Below are positions 35,379 through 41,492 of a DNA stretch of 64,000 nt, one piece after another. A model generated the notes under the pieces. The model was not told the origin of the DNA. It did no database searches and saw only the letters and a program-made list of their open reading frames with translations. The number at the start of each line of letters is the position of its first letter. Position 1 is the first letter of the stretch. Both the position numbers and the translations under genes were made by a program. The stretch is from assembly GCF_000165485.1 (NCBI RefSeq), contig NC_014623.1, forward strand, positions 1,135,501-1,199,500, given 5' to 3'. The DNA comes from Stigmatella aurantiaca DW4/3-1 (GTDB lineage Bacteria; Myxococcota; Myxococcia; Myxococcales; Myxococcaceae).

Positions 35379-37076
35379 TCACGGCTTTGGGGCTGGCTTC
35401 GCGGGAGGAGGGGCGGCCTTGGTGCCCTTCTTCCGAGGCCCCTTCTCCGCGGGCTCTCCCGGGCAGCGAGGCTCGCCTGCCGCGGGAGGCGGCAGCACGG
35501 TGAACTCGACGCGCCGGTTGAGGGCCATGCCCTCTTCGTTCTTGTTGTCCGCCACGGGGCGGCTCCGGCCGAAGCCCTGAGAGCACAGCCGCTCGGACTC
35601 CACGCCGCTCTCCTCGAGGTAGACGCGGATGCTGGCCGCCCGGCGCCTGGACAGTTCCAGGTTGTACTCGTCGCTGGAGCGCGAGTCGGTGTGCCCCTCG
35701 ACGAGGAGGCGTTTGATCTCCGGATGCGTCTTCAGCATCTGGGAGACCTCCTCAAGGATGGGCCAGGACTCGGACAGGAGGATGTCCTGGTCCGTGGCGA
35801 AGTTGATGGGCTCCAGGATGAGGATCTTGTTGCCCTGGATGCGGGCCAGCGGGCAGCCGTTCTTGCCAGAGGGCCCCGCGGGAACGTCCGGACACCTGTC
35901 GTCCTCGTTCGCGACGCCGTCCTGGTCGTTGTCCCGGATGGGGCAGCCCGAACGTGCGGCGGTGCCCACTTCGGACGGGCAGGCGTCGATGTCGTCGGTG
36001 ACGCCATCGCCATCGGAGTCCCGCAGGGGACACCCCTTGCGCGACTCGGGGCCGGACTCGTCTGGGCAGGAGTCGACGTCATCGTTGACGCCGTCCCCAT
36101 CGCTGTCCCTGGGAGGCTCCTTGAAGCGCTCGATGGCCGCGTACTCGGACATGACGGCGGGGACCCAGATGACGGACGTGAAGAAGCTGAGCTGCGGGGA
36201 CTGAAGCGAGCACCCGCACCCGAGGCCTCCGCCCACGGTGAAGGTGAGGCCGAGGCTGCTGTACCAGCGCAAGCCCAGGAGCAGCTCCGCGGGAATCTGC
36301 CGGGCTTGTCCTGGCAGCTTGGTCAACCCCACGGCGCCGTGGACCGCGCCCACGGCGGTCACGCCCACGGTTCGGAGCAGGGGCATCTCGGCGGCGAGGC
36401 CGAAGGGGGCCATGTCGCCAATCTTCACGCCGTTGAAGACGCGGTCCGGCCGGGCCCACAGGCCGGCATTGGCCGAGATGAGCAGGCCCATGCCGAAGCG
36501 GTAGTCCACGATGAGCCCGGGGGTGTAGGTGAGGGCGCCATCGCTGGCGAAGGCCTCCTGGTTGCCGGTGGGCAGCCCGAGGTTGAAGGTGAGGGCGGCG
36601 CCCCAGCCCGAGTCCTCGGCGCGGCGCCGGAAGCCTGGCAGCGCGACCTTGCTGGTGAGGCGCAGGTCGCCCAGCACGTAGCCCTCGACGAGCCCCTCGG
36701 TGCCAATGGCCTCCAGGTTGTCACCGCCCTGGAAGAGGATGAGGGGCATGTCCACGCCCAGCTCGACCCAGTCGAACAGGCCGACGTTGGCCATGGCATC
36801 CAGCTGGAGCCGGTTGCCCACGAGGCTGAGGGCTTTTTTGGACGAGTCCCCGTTCCGGGTCACCAGCACGAGCGGGTTGATGGAGAAGCTGAAGTAGAGG
36901 CCTCCCGACGCGGAGAGGTGGGACAGGGGCCTGGACTGGCTCACCGCCACGATGTCCTGTGGGGCGCCGGAGGGCCGGAAGAGCTGGGCGTCGAAGCGAG
37001 CGTCCTGTGCGGTGGCGGCGGAGACCGCGGCGAGGCACAGGGCCAGGGCGAGGGCCGTCGGAAGCGAGCGAGTCAT
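35379..37076 (-). CDS. traB: TraB-like outer-membrane exchange protein (beta-barrel, TSP3, OmpA domain)
   Basis: This 565-residue protein has a Sec signal (ends near ATAQ). Residues ~25-320 look like an outer-membrane beta-barrel. Three calcium-binding thrombospondin-3 repeats follow (RDSDGDGVNDDVDSC, RDSDGDGVTDDIDAC, RDNDQDGVANEDDRC), then an OmpA peptidoglycan-binding domain (~420-530; EGHTDSRSSDEYNLELSRRR region) and a Lys/Pro tail. Its ATG overlaps the stop of the TraA-like gene by four bases. In Myxococcus, TraA and TraB together mediate outer-membrane fusion and exchange of lipids and lipoproteins. Assignment rests on this pairing and architecture. Confidence 0.85.
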   Translation of the reverse strand: MTRSLPTALALALCLAAVSAATAQDARFDAQLFRPSGAPQDIVAVSQSRPLSHLSASGGLYFSFSINPLVLVTRNGDSSKKALSLVGNRLQLDAMANVGLFDWVELGVDMPLILFQGGDNLEAIGTEGLVEGYVLGDLRLTSKVALPGFRRRAEDSGWGAALTFNLGLPTGNQEAFASDGALTYTPGLIVDYRFGMGLLISANAGLWARPDRVFNGVKIGDMAPFGLAAEMPLLRTVGVTAVGAVHGAVGLTKLPGQARQIPAELLLGLRWYSSLGLTFTVGGGLGCGCSLQSPQLSFFTSVIWVPAVMSEYAAIERFKEPPRDSDGDGVNDDVDSCPDESGPESRKGCPLRDSDGDGVTDDIDACPSEVGTAARSGCPIRDNDQDGVANEDDRCPDVPAGPSGKNGCPLARIQGNKILILEPINFATDQDILLSESWPILEEVSQMLKTHPEIKRLLVEGHTDSRSSDEYNLELSRRRAASIRVYLEESGVESERLCSQGFGRSRPVADNKNEEGMALNRRVEFTVLPPPAAGEPRCPGEPAEKGPRKKGTKAAPPPAKPAPKP

Positions 37077-39223
37077 ACGCGGCGTTGGGAGTAGAGGAAC
37101 AGGAGGCCTACCAGGAGCATGGCCAGGAAGGCGCCGCCGCCGGTGGAGGGGAGATCGGCCGTCGTCGTCTCACAGCAGAAGGAGCCACCCTGGGGCTCGG
37201 TGCCGGGCATGCGGCGGCCCCGTTCGCACAGCTGGGTGGCGGCCGAGCAGTGCTGAACCCCCAGACAGTCGCCGCTCTCCGCGCAGGAGCTGTTGCAGGT
37301 GCCCTGCTTCACATCGCACGAGCCGCCGCAGGGGCAGTGCGCATCGGCGAAGCACTGGACACAGGCGGAGCCATTGCAGACGGTGCCTTCGGCGCAGCTC
37401 ACCTCACAGCCGTTGGTGGGCAGACAGGTGTGGGTGGAGGTGTCACACTGACCACTGCCACAGTCGGCGTCGTTCCGGCAAGCGACACAGGAGCTGCCGG
37501 CGGGGGTGCCATCGGAGAGGCAGAAGGGGGCGTCGCCGGGGCAGGCGCTGCAGCGTGGGCCGCAGTGCCGGTCGGTGATGCAGGAGGCACACTCGCCGCT
37601 GATGCAGAACTGGCCGCTGCCACACTCGAGGTCATTTCGGCACTGCACACAGACCTGTCCATCGAGGCAGAGGGGCCGGTCGGTGGGGCACTTCACACAG
37701 TCCTGGCCACAGCGGTCCGAGGTGTTGCAGGGGGCGATGGCGTCCACACAGCGGCCGTTGGCGGTGTCGCACGTTTTGCCGTCCGCGCATTGGGAGTCAT
37801 TGGTGCATTCGACGCAGGTGGGGGAGGTGCCGGGGGTAGGGGCGGCGCACTGGGTGCCTGAGGGGCAGCAGTTGCAGGAGTTGCCGGCGCAGCTGTCATT
37901 GGAGGTGCAGGTGACGCACTGATTGCCAGAGCAGCTCTTGCCCCGCTCGCAGTCCGAGTCCTGGTTGCACTCGCGGCACTGCTTGATGTCAGGGGCACAG
38001 ACTTCATCGGGAGGACAGTCTTCGTCCCGGTTGCACTCCACACAGGTGAAGTTGGGAATGTCGCAGACCTGGCCGGAGAGGCAGTCGCCGTCATCATTGC
38101 AGCCGGTGCAGGCATTGTTGGTGCACTGACCGGTGGGACAGTCGGAGTTGTTGAGACAGCCCTTGCAGGTGTTGGTGGCCGGGTCACAGCGGCCATTGGG
38201 GCACTGGCTGTCTTCGCTGCATTCGACACAGGTGAAGGAACCCGAGACGTTGATGCAGTAGGGGGTGCTCTGACCGCAGGGGGAGCAAGAAGGGCCACAG
38301 ACGCGAGATGTGTCGCAAGGGGCGCACAGCGCGGCGCCATTGCAGTAGTAGCCGGAGCCTACGCCGCAGCCGCCATTGCCAGGAGCATTGGCATTGGCAC
38401 GTAGGCACTGCGTGCATTGAACTGGGTCGGGATAAGAGGGACGACCGGTCTCTGTCTGGAAAAACTGCTCGGGTAGGGCAAGGATAAAACCGGAAGAGTT
38501 CAGATTGACGATGGGTGTTTGGTTTGCAGTTCGTTCGAAATCGCTGAAGGCGCCTTCCAGCACAGACATTTCCAATGCGGCGTGATCAGTTACCTCGGAG
38601 TAGAGGATTTCGACAGGGTAAAGGCCTGGATTTTGGAATGTGACGTTGTTGGTGGTACGCCATGTTGGGGCACCCAGTTGGGGTGGTCGATTGATGACCT
38701 GATACTGCACGTTGTTCCGGTCAAAGATGACAAAGCTCATGGCATCGTCGGTGTAGAAACCGAAGTGCAGTGTTTTGCCAGTCATTGCCTGGGTGACGTT
38801 CAAAAAGCCTCGAAAACGCGTTCCGAAGGACGTGAACGGGTCATTGATAAAGAAACTTGTTCCGTAATTTGTCCCATTAAAAAAGTCACCGCGGCTAGCG
38901 AGAGTCCCACCTGTGTTGTTGTTGGAGAGGTCGAATGGCGTTCGGAGCACGTATGTAGTCCGGTTAGCTACCGTCCGCTCCATGAAGTCGTTCATTCCTC
39001 CGATGTAGCTTGAAGTGCTCTGTGGAAAATCACCGGCGGGATCGGTTGAAATGCTCGATGCGGAGCACAACCCCGTACCTGGCAGGTCGGGGGACGGAGC
39101 CACAGGATCTCCAAACACGATGACATCCGGCAACTTCGCCGCCGATGCGGTACCCGCGAGGCACACGAGCACCACGGCCAGCGCCAGCGGGGCGCTTCGA
39201 ATCTGAAAAGGTAGCGAGAACAA
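37073..39223 (-). CDS. traA: TraA-like cell-surface recognition receptor for outer-membrane exchange
   Basis: The protein has 716 residues. The start appears to be TTG 39223, the only start giving the signal peptide (cut near TASA). Residues ~50-235 are PA14-like, the partner-recognition domain in TraA. Residues ~265-690 are Cys-rich repeats (CVECxxDxxC units). A Gly-Gly-Gly membrane helix and RR end the chain, a MYXO-CTERM-like sorting tail, with a Cys pair (GSFCCE) before it. It is coupled to traB. In myxobacteria this receptor sets kin recognition and starts membrane exchange. GC drops to about 51% (hand count, 38521-39000) in the recognition domain. Confidence 0.9.
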   Translation of the reverse strand: MFSLPFQIRSAPLALAVVLVCLAGTASAAKLPDVIVFGDPVAPSPDLPGTGLCSASSISTDPAGDFPQSTSSYIGGMNDFMERTVANRTTYVLRTPFDLSNNNTGGTLASRGDFFNGTNYGTSFFINDPFTSFGTRFRGFLNVTQAMTGKTLHFGFYTDDAMSFVIFDRNNVQYQVINRPPQLGAPTWRTTNNVTFQNPGLYPVEILYSEVTDHAALEMSVLEGAFSDFERTANQTPIVNLNSSGFILALPEQFFQTETGRPSYPDPVQCTQCLRANANAPGNGGCGVGSGYYCNGAALCAPCDTSRVCGPSCSPCGQSTPYCINVSGSFTCVECSEDSQCPNGRCDPATNTCKGCLNNSDCPTGQCTNNACTGCNDDGDCLSGQVCDIPNFTCVECNRDEDCPPDEVCAPDIKQCRECNQDSDCERGKSCSGNQCVTCTSNDSCAGNSCNCCPSGTQCAAPTPGTSPTCVECTNDSQCADGKTCDTANGRCVDAIAPCNTSDRCGQDCVKCPTDRPLCLDGQVCVQCRNDLECGSGQFCISGECASCITDRHCGPRCSACPGDAPFCLSDGTPAGSSCVACRNDADCGSGQCDTSTHTCLPTNGCEVSCAEGTVCNGSACVQCFADAHCPCGGSCDVKQGTCNSSCAESGDCLGVQHCSAATQLCERGRRMPGTEPQGGSFCCETTTADLPSTGGGAFLAMLLVGLLFLYSQRRV

Positions 39224-39301
39224 GGGGTTACATACTCCCCTAACTGGGGCACTGGCGCAAATGTCCAGTCGCCCGGGAATCCCATCGCCTTCTTTAGCTA
39301 G

Positions 39302-39335
39302 CAGGTTGCCCCCAAGTCGTGCAACCTGTCAGGTT
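39302..39335. promoter_or_regulatory. CAGGTT/AACCTG inverted repeats upstream of traA
   Basis: Three related half-sites lie between the first XRE gene and traA. CAGGTTGC (39302-39309) and GCAACCTG (39321-39328) form an 8-bp inverted repeat, and AACCTG-T-CAGGTT (39323-39335) is a perfect 13-base palindrome sharing the middle half-site. They lie 79-112 bases upstream of the traA start. The ACCTG core is shared with sites near all three XRE genes. The outer hairpin could alternatively terminate the XRE transcript, but no T-run follows. Confidence 0.55.
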
Positions 39336-39370
39336 CGAGGAGCGCGTCAGGCCCTAGGGAAGGAGGTGTC

Positions 39371-39877
39371 TCAACGGGGTTTGTCGGCGGTAGGTGGGGC
39401 CAGCCCGAGCAGCTGGTCGGACATCTCGCCGAGAACCTGGCAGATGGTCACGAAGCGGTCCAACCTGGGCAGCGTCTCTCCGCGCTCCATCCGGCCGTAC
39501 AGGTCCACGGGCATGCGAATCCGCTCGGCCATTTCCACCTGTGTGAGCCCCAGGCGCTTCCGTGCCTCCCTCATGTTGGCGCCCAGCCTCCGCTGGAGAT
39601 CCTCGATCGGGACTTCCGCCGGGTCCGGCGCCTCGGAGGTCTCCTCGTCCGCTGTCGCGGGCTCGCGGCTTGATATCAGCCGGTTCGGTGTCTCGCCGAG
39701 CACACGGCAGATGACCACGAAGCGCTCCAGCCGCGGCACGAGGTTGCCGCGCTCCATGCGCCCGTACACCTCAGGCGTCATGTTGATCCGCTCCGCCATC
39801 TGCTCCTGTGTGAGACCCAGCCGATGACGGGCCTGGCGGATGTTCCGGCCCAGCGTCCTTCTGTCGAGGCTGTCCAT
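39371..39877 (-). CDS. XRE-family regulator with two helix-turn-helix domains
   Basis: The protein has 168 residues from ATG 39877 behind GGGAGG. It contains two Cro/C1-type domains in tandem (~residues 8-65 and ~88-148) that resemble each other (GLTQEQMAERI and GLTQVEMAERI; both YGRMERG and LPRL/VPRL), so it arose by internal duplication. One chain could bind two half-sites. It is the nearest regulator gene to traA, 147 bases upstream on the same strand. Two more paralogues follow upstream. Confidence 0.9.
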   Translation of the reverse strand: MDSLDRRTLGRNIRQARHRLGLTQEQMAERINMTPEVYGRMERGNLVPRLERFVVICRVLGETPNRLISSREPATADEETSEAPDPAEVPIEDLQRRLGANMREARKRLGLTQVEMAERIRMPVDLYGRMERGETLPRLDRFVTICQVLGEMSDQLLGLAPPTADKPR

Positions 39878-39911
39878 GCTCCTCCCTACCTGTTCACACC
39901 CAACATGATGG

Positions 39912-39971
39912 GTTGGGTCCGTGGAATACAACGCCCTAGGTTGGGTTCACAGAATGCGGCGGGTTGGTAGG
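39912..39971 (-). promoter_or_regulatory. Two copies of the GTTGGGTCC/TCA element before the two-domain XRE gene
   Basis: GTTGGGTCC (39912-39920) and GTTGGGTTCAC (39940-39950) recur 28 bases apart, the second followed by GGCGGGTTGGTAGG. They resemble the GTTGGGTCCAC element before the second XRE gene and GTTGGACTCC before the third. They may bind the XRE proteins or form part of a shared promoter. Confidence 0.5.
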
Positions 39972-40055
39972 ATAACGCGTGACGTGGCAGGTAGGATTTG
40001 AGCGCAGTCCCCGAGGGCGCAAGGCCTCAGGGGAAGGCGGTTTCTGGGAGGGTTT

Positions 40056-40523
40056 CTACCGGGCGGGAGCGTGAGAGGTGCGCCGTCTGCGGCGCCTTTC
40101 CATCGGCTCCGTTCCCAGGAAGGTGCTGAGGAGGCGCTGAAAGTCCGCGATGTGACGCCGGACAGCGACGCGCTGCAGCTGCGTCAGCCTCGGCATCACG
40201 GGCATGAGCCGGTGCAGGACCGGGAGAAGTTCGTCGTAGCCGGGGGTTCCCATGGCGGGCAGGGACTCGTGGGGGTTGGCGAGTCCCAGCAGCCGGTCCG
40301 AGGACTCGCCCAATTTCTCGCAGATGACCGTCAGCCGCTCCACCCGCGGGAAGATGAGCCCGCGCTCCATGCGTCCGTACACCTCCGGAGAAATGCCCAG
40401 CATCTCGGCCATCTGCTCCTGCGTGATGCCGAGGCGCTCCCGTGCCCGGCGGGTATTCGCCCCGAGGTTTTTCCTGAGCGCCTCCACGCGCTTGCGTTCG
40501 CGCTCTTCATCGCTGGTGTCCAT
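40056..40523 (-). CDS. XRE-family regulator, second paralogue
   Basis: The protein has 155 residues from ATG 40523 (AGGTGGG upstream). A single Cro/C1-type domain (~residues 18-76; GITQEQMAEMLGIS, YGRMERG) is followed by a helical C-terminal part with LHRLMPVMPRLTQLQ and a basic end (MERRRRRRTS). The C-terminal half differs from the third paralogue but has the same position and helical nature (LLPVLHRLMPVM versus MMTLMRHFVVEM), suggesting a dimerisation or sensing segment. Its upstream element matches that of the third paralogue closely. Confidence 0.9.
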   Translation of the reverse strand: MDTSDEERERKRVEALRKNLGANTRRARERLGITQEQMAEMLGISPEVYGRMERGLIFPRVERLTVICEKLGESSDRLLGLANPHESLPAMGTPGYDELLPVLHRLMPVMPRLTQLQRVAVRRHIADFQRLLSTFLGTEPMERRRRRRTSHAPAR

Positions 40524-40843
40524 GTGGCACCCACCTTGAAAAGTTGGAAACGTAGATAAGACTCAAAACGTTGGGTCCACAAGGACACTCGGGGTAGGTA
40601 TGGAGCGAGACCGCCCAGGTTATAACTCACCTGGTTCTTTTCCCCTTTCCTACCTGATAGGGGAGAAGATGACGACCGCCTCTTTGCGGGAAAACGGCCA
40701 CGAACGCGAGGCGCGCGAGAGAGATCATCCCTGGGAAGAGGGCCGTTGCAGCGGAAGGTGGGGGAGGAGGGGGCCGGGAGAACTGCGAGTCCGTCTCGCG
40801 TCCTGCTACCTGGACCCGGAAGAGGGTGTGCGGCAGAGGGGCG
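40524..40843. other. Regulatory intergenic region between XRE genes 2 and 3, 320 bp
   Basis: There is no convincing gene. It holds the shared GACTC-N5-GTTGG element near its left end, an inverted repeat CCAGGT-N8-ACCTGG (40615-40634) and two exact CTACCTG heptamers (40650-40656 and 40806-40812). Four ACCTG/CAGGT cores lie in this stretch. It is long for a gap between co-directional genes, so each XRE gene probably has its own promoter. Confidence 0.65.
40560..40603 (-). promoter_or_regulatory. Shared upstream element of XRE gene 2
   Basis: GACTC begins at 40560 and GTTGGGTCC at 40570, followed by AAGGACACTCGGGGTAG. The same order with the same ten-base offset occurs before XRE gene 3 (41346 and 41356). 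GACTC lies 37 bases upstream of the start codon here and 38 there. This conservation of sequence and position marks a functional control site. Confidence 0.65.
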
Positions 40844-41308
40844 CTAATCGGCGGGTCTTCCCCGCTTGGCAAGGGCGCGGCGGGTTTTCGCGGCCTCGGC
40901 CCGTCGCTTCTTGGTGAGCGTGATGAGCCGCTGCAGATGGGCGAAGATCTGCATCAGCTCCTTCCGCTCGTCTTCCGCGAGCTGGGCTTCCATCTCCACG
41001 ACGAAGTGACGCATCAGCGTCATCATCTCGTCGTAGGCCGGAGACATCCGGGGGGTCTGGGGGAGCCCCACCCCCACGCCGAAGCCGAGCATCTGATTGG
41101 GCGTCGTTCCGAGGATTTCACACAGCAGGACGAATCGTTCCAACCGGGGAAGGGCTTCCTTGCGCTCCATGCGGCCTAAGACTTCGGTCGACATTTCGAG
41201 CAGCTCTGCGAGACGGGCTTGGGAGATGTTGAGCCGGGTTCGGGCCTCGCGGATGTTGGGCCCCAATAGTTTCTTGGGGTTTTTCGCCGGCTTCTTATCC
41301 ATTCCCAT
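40844..41308 (-). CDS. XRE-family regulator, third paralogue
   Basis: The protein has 154 residues from ATG 41308 (GGTGGGG upstream; an ATG two codons later is an alternative). The Cro/C1-type domain covers ~residues 15-75 (NISQARLAELLEMS, LGRMERKEALPRL). A Gly/Val/Pro linker leads to a helical C-terminal region and a very basic end (KTRRALAKRGRPAD). It is the first of three co-directional paralogues reading towards traA. There is no toxin-like partner, so a toxin-antitoxin role is unlikely. Confidence 0.9.
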   Translation of the reverse strand: MGMDKKPAKNPKKLLGPNIREARTRLNISQARLAELLEMSTEVLGRMERKEALPRLERFVLLCEILGTTPNQMLGFGVGVGLPQTPRMSPAYDEMMTLMRHFVVEMEAQLAEDERKELMQIFAHLQRLITLTKKRRAEAAKTRRALAKRGRPAD

Positions 41309-41345
41309 CCCATGCCCCACCGCGTAAAGTCGGGGGGATACATAG

Positions 41346-41390
41346 GACTCGGAAAGTTGGACTCCAAGGACACGCGGGGTAGTCATGAGG
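41346..41390 (-). promoter_or_regulatory. Shared upstream element of XRE gene 3
   Basis: GACTC (41346) and GTTGGACTCC (41356) are followed by AAGGACACGCGGGGTAG, closely matching the element at 40560-40603. Just upstream (in the direction of transcription) lie TGACC-N5-GGTCA (41393-41407) and two CAGGT cores (41402 and 41430). Confidence 0.65.
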
Positions 41391-41492
41391 TAGTGACCGA
41401 CCAGGTCATCACCCGGCCAGTCTCCCTACCAGGTCCCCATCCCAAGCGGGCCGCGATGCCGAAGATGGCCGGATCCTACCAGATTTTCGGCC

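Follow-up and report, generated by a model that had tools for sequence, protein, structure and literature searches.

A candidate XRE-family operator at the traA outer membrane exchange locus of Stigmatella aurantiaca and its relatives

Genes and promoters at the traA locus

Whether cells exchange membrane, goods and toxins with one another depends on the outer membrane exchange receptor TraA. In the window (the whole 64,000-nucleotide stretch of S. aurantiaca DW4/3-1 that was analysed), traA occupies positions 37073-39223 and has a TTG start; it is followed by traB (35379-37076), which encodes its OmpA-domain partner and has Pfam OmpA and TSP_3 matches. The traA product scores 1080.7 bits against the NCBIfam model NF033759 (exchanger_TraA; cutoff 750), which identifies it as a TraA receptor. 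The two genes overlap by 4 bases; the traAB operon of M. xanthus has the same arrangement and the same 4-base overlap (PMC3325183).

All genes, promoters and operators described in the window are on the minus strand, where the gene order is GTPase gene, XRE3, XRE2, XRE1, traA, traB. XRE1 (39371-39877) has two HTH domains, with two stretches matching each of Pfam HTH_3 and HTH_31; XRE2 (40056-40523) and XRE3 (40844-41302) match HTH_3. The HTH_3/HTH_31 scores (83.2, 45.8 and 39.3 bits for XRE1, XRE2 and XRE3, respectively) are all above the Pfam cutoff of 23, and each gene has a palindrome upstream of its own start, as befits an XRE regulator. None of the three scores above the NCBIfam cutoff for the RstR-, ClgR- or HigA-type subfamilies. 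The best RstR match is that of XRE1, at 71.4 bits against a cutoff of 80 (a sum over its two domains); XRE2 reaches 37.0 bits, and the ClgR score is 19.2 against 170.

A consensus sigma-70 scan returned a single site, on the wrong strand and no better than in shuffled sequence; promoter predictions are therefore drawn from comparative alignment alone. The predicted traA promoter, TTGCGC-N17-GAGTAT (39232-39260), was not recovered by the scan; the TTG start lies 8 bp downstream of it. In the alignment of genus g1 and genome G083, the promoter reads TTGATC-N17-GATAAT, followed by GTAACCCCTTG. In eight genomes the predicted -10 element is followed by GTAACCCC and by a conserved TTG start which lacks a Shine-Dalgarno sequence (39223-39260 in the window); one possibility is a leaderless traA mRNA that begins at this TTG.

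An eight-genome alignment predicts the promoters of XRE2 (TTGTGG-N18-TATCTA, 40553-40582) and XRE3 (TTGGAG-N17-TATGTA, 41339-41367), which are paralogous over about 130 bp in the eight-locus alignment. They share a layout: an upstream palindrome TRACC-N5-GGTC, a CTACCCCGNGTGTCC element, the -35 and -10 elements, and a GGTGGGC region before the start. The element adjoining the -35 is CTACCCCGAGTGTCC at XRE2 (40583-40597), with exact matches in the genus at XRE2 and XRE3 only, and CTACCCCGCGTGTCC at XRE3 (41368-41382), identified in the same exact-match search. Within the genus, the XRE2/XRE3 composite and the CAACCCANNATGNTGGGT composite of XRE1 match exactly at the traA/XRE locus only; copies with one mismatch occur elsewhere.

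Three other assignments in this DNA were rejected. CTACCCCGNGTGTCC is locus-specific yet found only at XRE2 and XRE3, and may be merely part of the duplicated promoter rather than an operator. No Rfam match supports an RNA element. The CCAGGT-N8-ACCTGG repeat (40615-40634) is a poor terminator candidate, since it is found on the opposite strand and diverged relatives no longer have it.

From ACCTG cores to a candidate ACC-N5-GGT operator

A sequence-only reading of this DNA had counted 11 ACCTG/CAGGT cores in about 829 bp of gap sequence, with 1.6 expected. The recount is exact: the four gaps contain cores at 39302, 39324, 39330, 39888, 39988, 40616, 40629, 40652, 40808, 41402 and 41430. The expected number was slightly low; it is 2.0 at the rate of intergenic DNA of the same genome (33,357 bp, sampled over the genome; genome sample 400 kb) and 2.9 at the window average. 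The enrichment nevertheless stands, and core density in intergenic DNA elsewhere in the genome is lower than in the gaps, not equal to it. The Poisson p value is 9e-6, or about 0.005 once corrected for 512 possible 5-mers, and none of 20,000 resamplings of intergenic pieces reached 11 cores. The four CTACCTG heptamers (39886, 39988 reverse, 40650, 40806) and the palindrome AACCTG-T-CAGGTT upstream of traA (39323-39335) are also present as first described. All seven related loci are enriched, with 5-13 cores each where 1-2 are expected.

Some other short strings match or exceed this enrichment in the gaps, among them CTACC (10 against 1.0 expected) and ACCCAAC (4 against 0.1); ACCTG alone is therefore not the full signal. 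Neither ACCTG nor CTACCTG is enriched genome-wide as a whole motif (CTACCTG, 2237 occurrences against 2427 for the reversed control). Since short words are equally enriched and the heptamer is ordinary genome-wide, relatives were compared. Three close relatives retain every core except one. Of the cores, only 41402 and 40616 persist in each of four diverged relatives; 40652 persists in three of them. Conservation thus holds for the key sites, but most cores are not kept outside close relatives.

ACCTG is chiefly one half of a 13-letter candidate operator with two-fold symmetry, RACC-N5-GGTY. Spacers of 0 to 13 were compared in the upstream DNA of 43 non-redundant members of the XRE family, from this and other genomes and outside the traA locus: N5 gave 15 sites against 0.26 expected, and the other spacers 0-4, the four being N10. 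Twenty sites show symmetric preferences beyond the search pattern (R/Y 18 and 17, Y/R 19 and 20, K/M 19 and 15), which refine the consensus to RACCYKNMRGGTY; ACCTG is the commonest form of the half-site RACCYK. About five of the 11 cores fit the operator, four in strict palindromes and one in a CGT variant; about six are outside any N5 site and are not explained by it. The idea that every core is a site is accordingly not supported, and the unit is ACC-N5-GGT instead of ACCTG. A palindrome with the wrong spacer, ACCTGN3CAGGT, was also discarded: it occurs 54 times in the genome, with none at the traA/XRE locus among the matches listed.

The single-contig genome (10,260,756 bp) contains 29 strict RACCYKNMRGGTY copies. 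Three of these are at XRE/traA loci, which make up about 0.04% of the genome: the palindrome between XRE1 and traA, and two before other XRE genes. TGACCN5GGTCA occurs at 20 sites genome-wide, including the operator of XRE3, and the intergenic background of the operator is about one site per 33 kb. Enrichment is weak upstream of 20 held-out, unrelated XRE paralogs (ACC-N5-GGT, 4 against 0.73; RACC..GGTY, 1 against 0.12), so not every family member carries the site; about two thirds of XRE-family promoters are without it. The CGT half shows a weak spacer preference in XRE promoters (N5 6, N4 5, N6 4). One strict copy (L267, G000:C1:719925) precedes, by about 150 bp, a gene encoding a protein with a DnaN-like beginning (DnaN is the sliding clamp of DNA polymerase).

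O-traA (GAACC-TGACA-GGTTG, 39322-39336), a strict copy between XRE1 and traA, precedes the predicted -35 of traA by 61 bp; a counterpart is found beside XRE1 in all seven genomes of the genus. O-X2 (TAACC-TGGGC-GGTCT, 40608-40622) retains ACC-N5-GGT in 8 of 8 genomes. Abutting it, the alignment reveals a degenerate second operator (GAACC-AGGTG-AGTTA, 40623-40637), whose XRE3 counterpart in G080-G083 reads RGACC-N5-GGTTA. O-X3 (TGACC-TGGTC-GGTCA, 41394-41408) is conserved as TGACC-N5-GGTC in seven of eight genomes, with GGCC in G082. Both O-X2 and O-X3 are retained in diverged genomes despite changed flanks.

The XRE1 promoter differs in form. Its start-proximal palindrome, ACCCAAC-CCATCAT-GTTGGGT (39896-39918), is of ACC-N10-GGT type and corresponds to CAACCCANNATGNTGGGT, which is present at XRE1 in all seven genomes of the genus (six exact; one mismatch in G081). 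Upstream of it are a second N5-like site (CAACC-TAGGG-CGTTG, 39929-39943; same position in 6 of 7 genomes) and a CGT-variant N5 site (CTACC-TGCCA-CGTCA, 39980-39994) of the form found at Myxococcus traA. Within the coding start of traA there is a further ACC-N5-GGT palindrome, CGACCTGCCAGGTAC (39075-39089), retained in four close genomes.

The traA locus and its upstream sites in other genera

All seven genomes of the GTDB-like genus g1 preserve the order GTPase-XREs-traA-traB, apart from some inserts. In G083 (genus g8) the locus contains two XRE genes; members of g3, g5 and g7 and one g19 genome have one, and the remaining g6 and g19 genomes that were laid out have none. No XRE adjoins traA in most of the Myxococcus and Corallococcus genomes examined; a distant XRE must therefore be assumed there. 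Genera without the array have a conserved gene of about 355 codons and no Pfam match between the GTPase gene and traA (e.g. L073 4299-5378, L079 4486-5550, L081 3086-4156). It is apparently at the place of M. xanthus mxan_6894, and on inspection by eye the C-terminus is reminiscent of a DAC-type nucleotide cyclase; mxan_6894 lies 126 bp upstream of traA and is not reported as a regulator (PMC3325183).

The palindrome is not tied to traA in every Stigmatella-type genome. Three of seven (G080, G081 and G082) have kept it next to XRE1, with traA 2-4 kb away behind inserted genes. These inserts (L069 6776-8930, L070 6634-8805, L071 6847-11228) encode an extra XRE with an XRE1-type palindrome in two of the three genomes, ORFs resembling Cys-rich secreted proteins in G080 and G081, and an RCC1-like repeat protein in G082.

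In an XRE tree built from 62 columns, in which many forks are unresolved, a single clade (100/97) unites the traA-linked XREs of the genus with those of G083. The same tree requires three separate XRE-traA associations; the single traA-linked XREs of g3 and of g5/G104 arose separately. Recognition helices are near-identical among the traA-linked XREs of the clade (PEVYGRMERG), which makes cross-binding likely.

The operator was sought upstream of 64 traA genes from other species and genera. The GGT-only motif, taken from XRE promoters, matches 24 of 64 (other spacers, 0-5). With either a GGT or a CGT half the N5 site is found in 45 of 64 (other spacers, 0-9), the CGT half having been added only after the Myxococcus alignment was seen. 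Most Myxococcus traA sequences have the CGT form RACCTGNNACGTY, as upstream of XRE1 here; the M. xanthus site (GGACCCGCGACGTCG) reads GGACC-CGCGA-CGTCG in strain AM003. Sites with the GGT half include GAACC-CTGTA-GGTTC (g5) and GGACC-CTGGA-GGTCG (Corallococcus).

With either half allowed, the N5 site is present at traA in 22 of 27 sequences in g19 and 13 of 15 in g6, counts never reached in 3000 column shuffles each, which preserve the relatedness of the sequences. The same shuffles gave p values of 0.003 for g3/g7, where the site is very near the start and may overlap the ribosome-binding site, and 0.014 for g5; under the strict pattern g1 does not reach significance. Within 260 bp of traA, no N5 site is found in G083 or in three genomes of the genus. 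In Corallococcus G061 and G063 (L214, L212), about 50 bp that contains the traA operator in the others is missing, a natural deletion that offers a possible test. A traA with 81% identity comes from a record titled Comamonas sp. KCTC 72670 (L240), which is plainly a myxobacterium under the wrong label.

Proposed regulation of outer membrane exchange

The site, its symmetry and spacing specificity, its recurrence before XRE genes and traA, and the tandem XRE duplication were computed directly. Recurrence before genes of one XRE family is as expected of an autoregulatory XRE site. From this we infer operator binding, the identity of the binding XRE and the sign of control. Our main reading, given a probability of roughly 0.6, is that the symmetric RACCYKNMRGGTY operator is bound by the XRE/HTH_3 family and governs both the XRE genes and traA; the earlier suggestion of a shared XRE site reaching traA would survive in this form, as ACC-N5-GGT recurs before both in several genera.

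In the proposed mechanism, dimers of the myxobacterial XRE/HTH_3 family would bind ACC-N5-GGT. At XRE2 and XRE3 the operator precedes the predicted -35 by about 25 bp and has a weaker second copy directly upstream; each of the two would thus regulate itself and probably the other. Since the operator is found between XRE1 and traA here, and before traA in Myxococcus, Corallococcus and genera g3, g5 and g7, transcription of traA, and with it outer membrane exchange, would most likely be under the control of a family XRE. Sites that lie upstream of the -35 point to activation or looping, not polymerase blocking.

The operator might instead autoregulate XRE genes only, the copy before traA being simply the 3' flank of XRE1 with no role at traA. 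The three genomes in which the copy remains with XRE1 while traA is 2-4 kb off fit this explanation, as does the conserved promoter that traA owns 61 bp downstream of the site. It is nonetheless unlikely: Corallococcus, Myxococcus and genus g5 have independent N5 sites upstream of traA where XRE1 is absent. Somewhat less probable still is that another regulator, e.g. a global two-fold symmetric activator, binds the site and controls both XREs and traA. This would suit a site upstream of the -35, unlike that of a typical XRE repressor, and the lack of the site in about two thirds of XRE-family promoters. Against a background of about one site per 33 kb, however, the strong concentration before genes of one XRE family is what autoregulation predicts, and a 15-bp palindrome with half-sites 10 bp apart would suit an XRE dimer.

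ACCTG clustering could also be a by-product of tandem XRE promoter duplication and chance, with no functional site. The paralogy of the XRE2 and XRE3 promoters over about 130 bp and the poor conservation of most cores beyond close relatives agree with this; it is made very improbable by an enrichment that is confined to one spacer and is seen in promoters of unrelated XRE genes as well as in those of traA in other genera, and by palindromes that are conserved while their flanks have drifted.

No traA regulator or operator was found in the open-access literature searched. The Caulobacter proteins RtrA, RtrB, CdxA and CdxB are likewise radiated XRE paralogs with similar DNA-binding domains, which bind overlapping sites and control a surface trait, the holdfast adhesin (PMC10688885). 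They belong to another phylum, have another target and are ChIP-proven, where the present case is computational, and are compared as a functional analogue only; unlike them, the Stigmatella paralogs are in tandem and adjacent to the predicted target gene. An XRE regulator of M. xanthus shares the myxobacterial setting and an architecture of N-terminal HTH and C-terminal helices; it differs in regulating DNA repair, and the text of the paper gives no binding motif (PMC12288472). A survey of palindromic XRE motifs likewise deals with autoregulatory palindromes upstream of XRE genes; its main text does not spell out ACC-N5-GGT (PMC12565409).

A broader view, put forward tentatively and with rather less confidence than the main reading, is that radiating XRE paralogs control outer membrane exchange in the Myxococcaceae via a conserved traA operator. 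They would have settled beside traA at least three times, forming in the genus a cross-regulating array in which one member has two HTH domains. The operator offers a first testable candidate for the switching of outer membrane sharing. As the 15-bp site extends from Stigmatella-type genomes to M. xanthus, control of kin recognition can be put to a direct test in the model species. The operator also yields predicted targets for a large XRE family that is so far uncharacterised.
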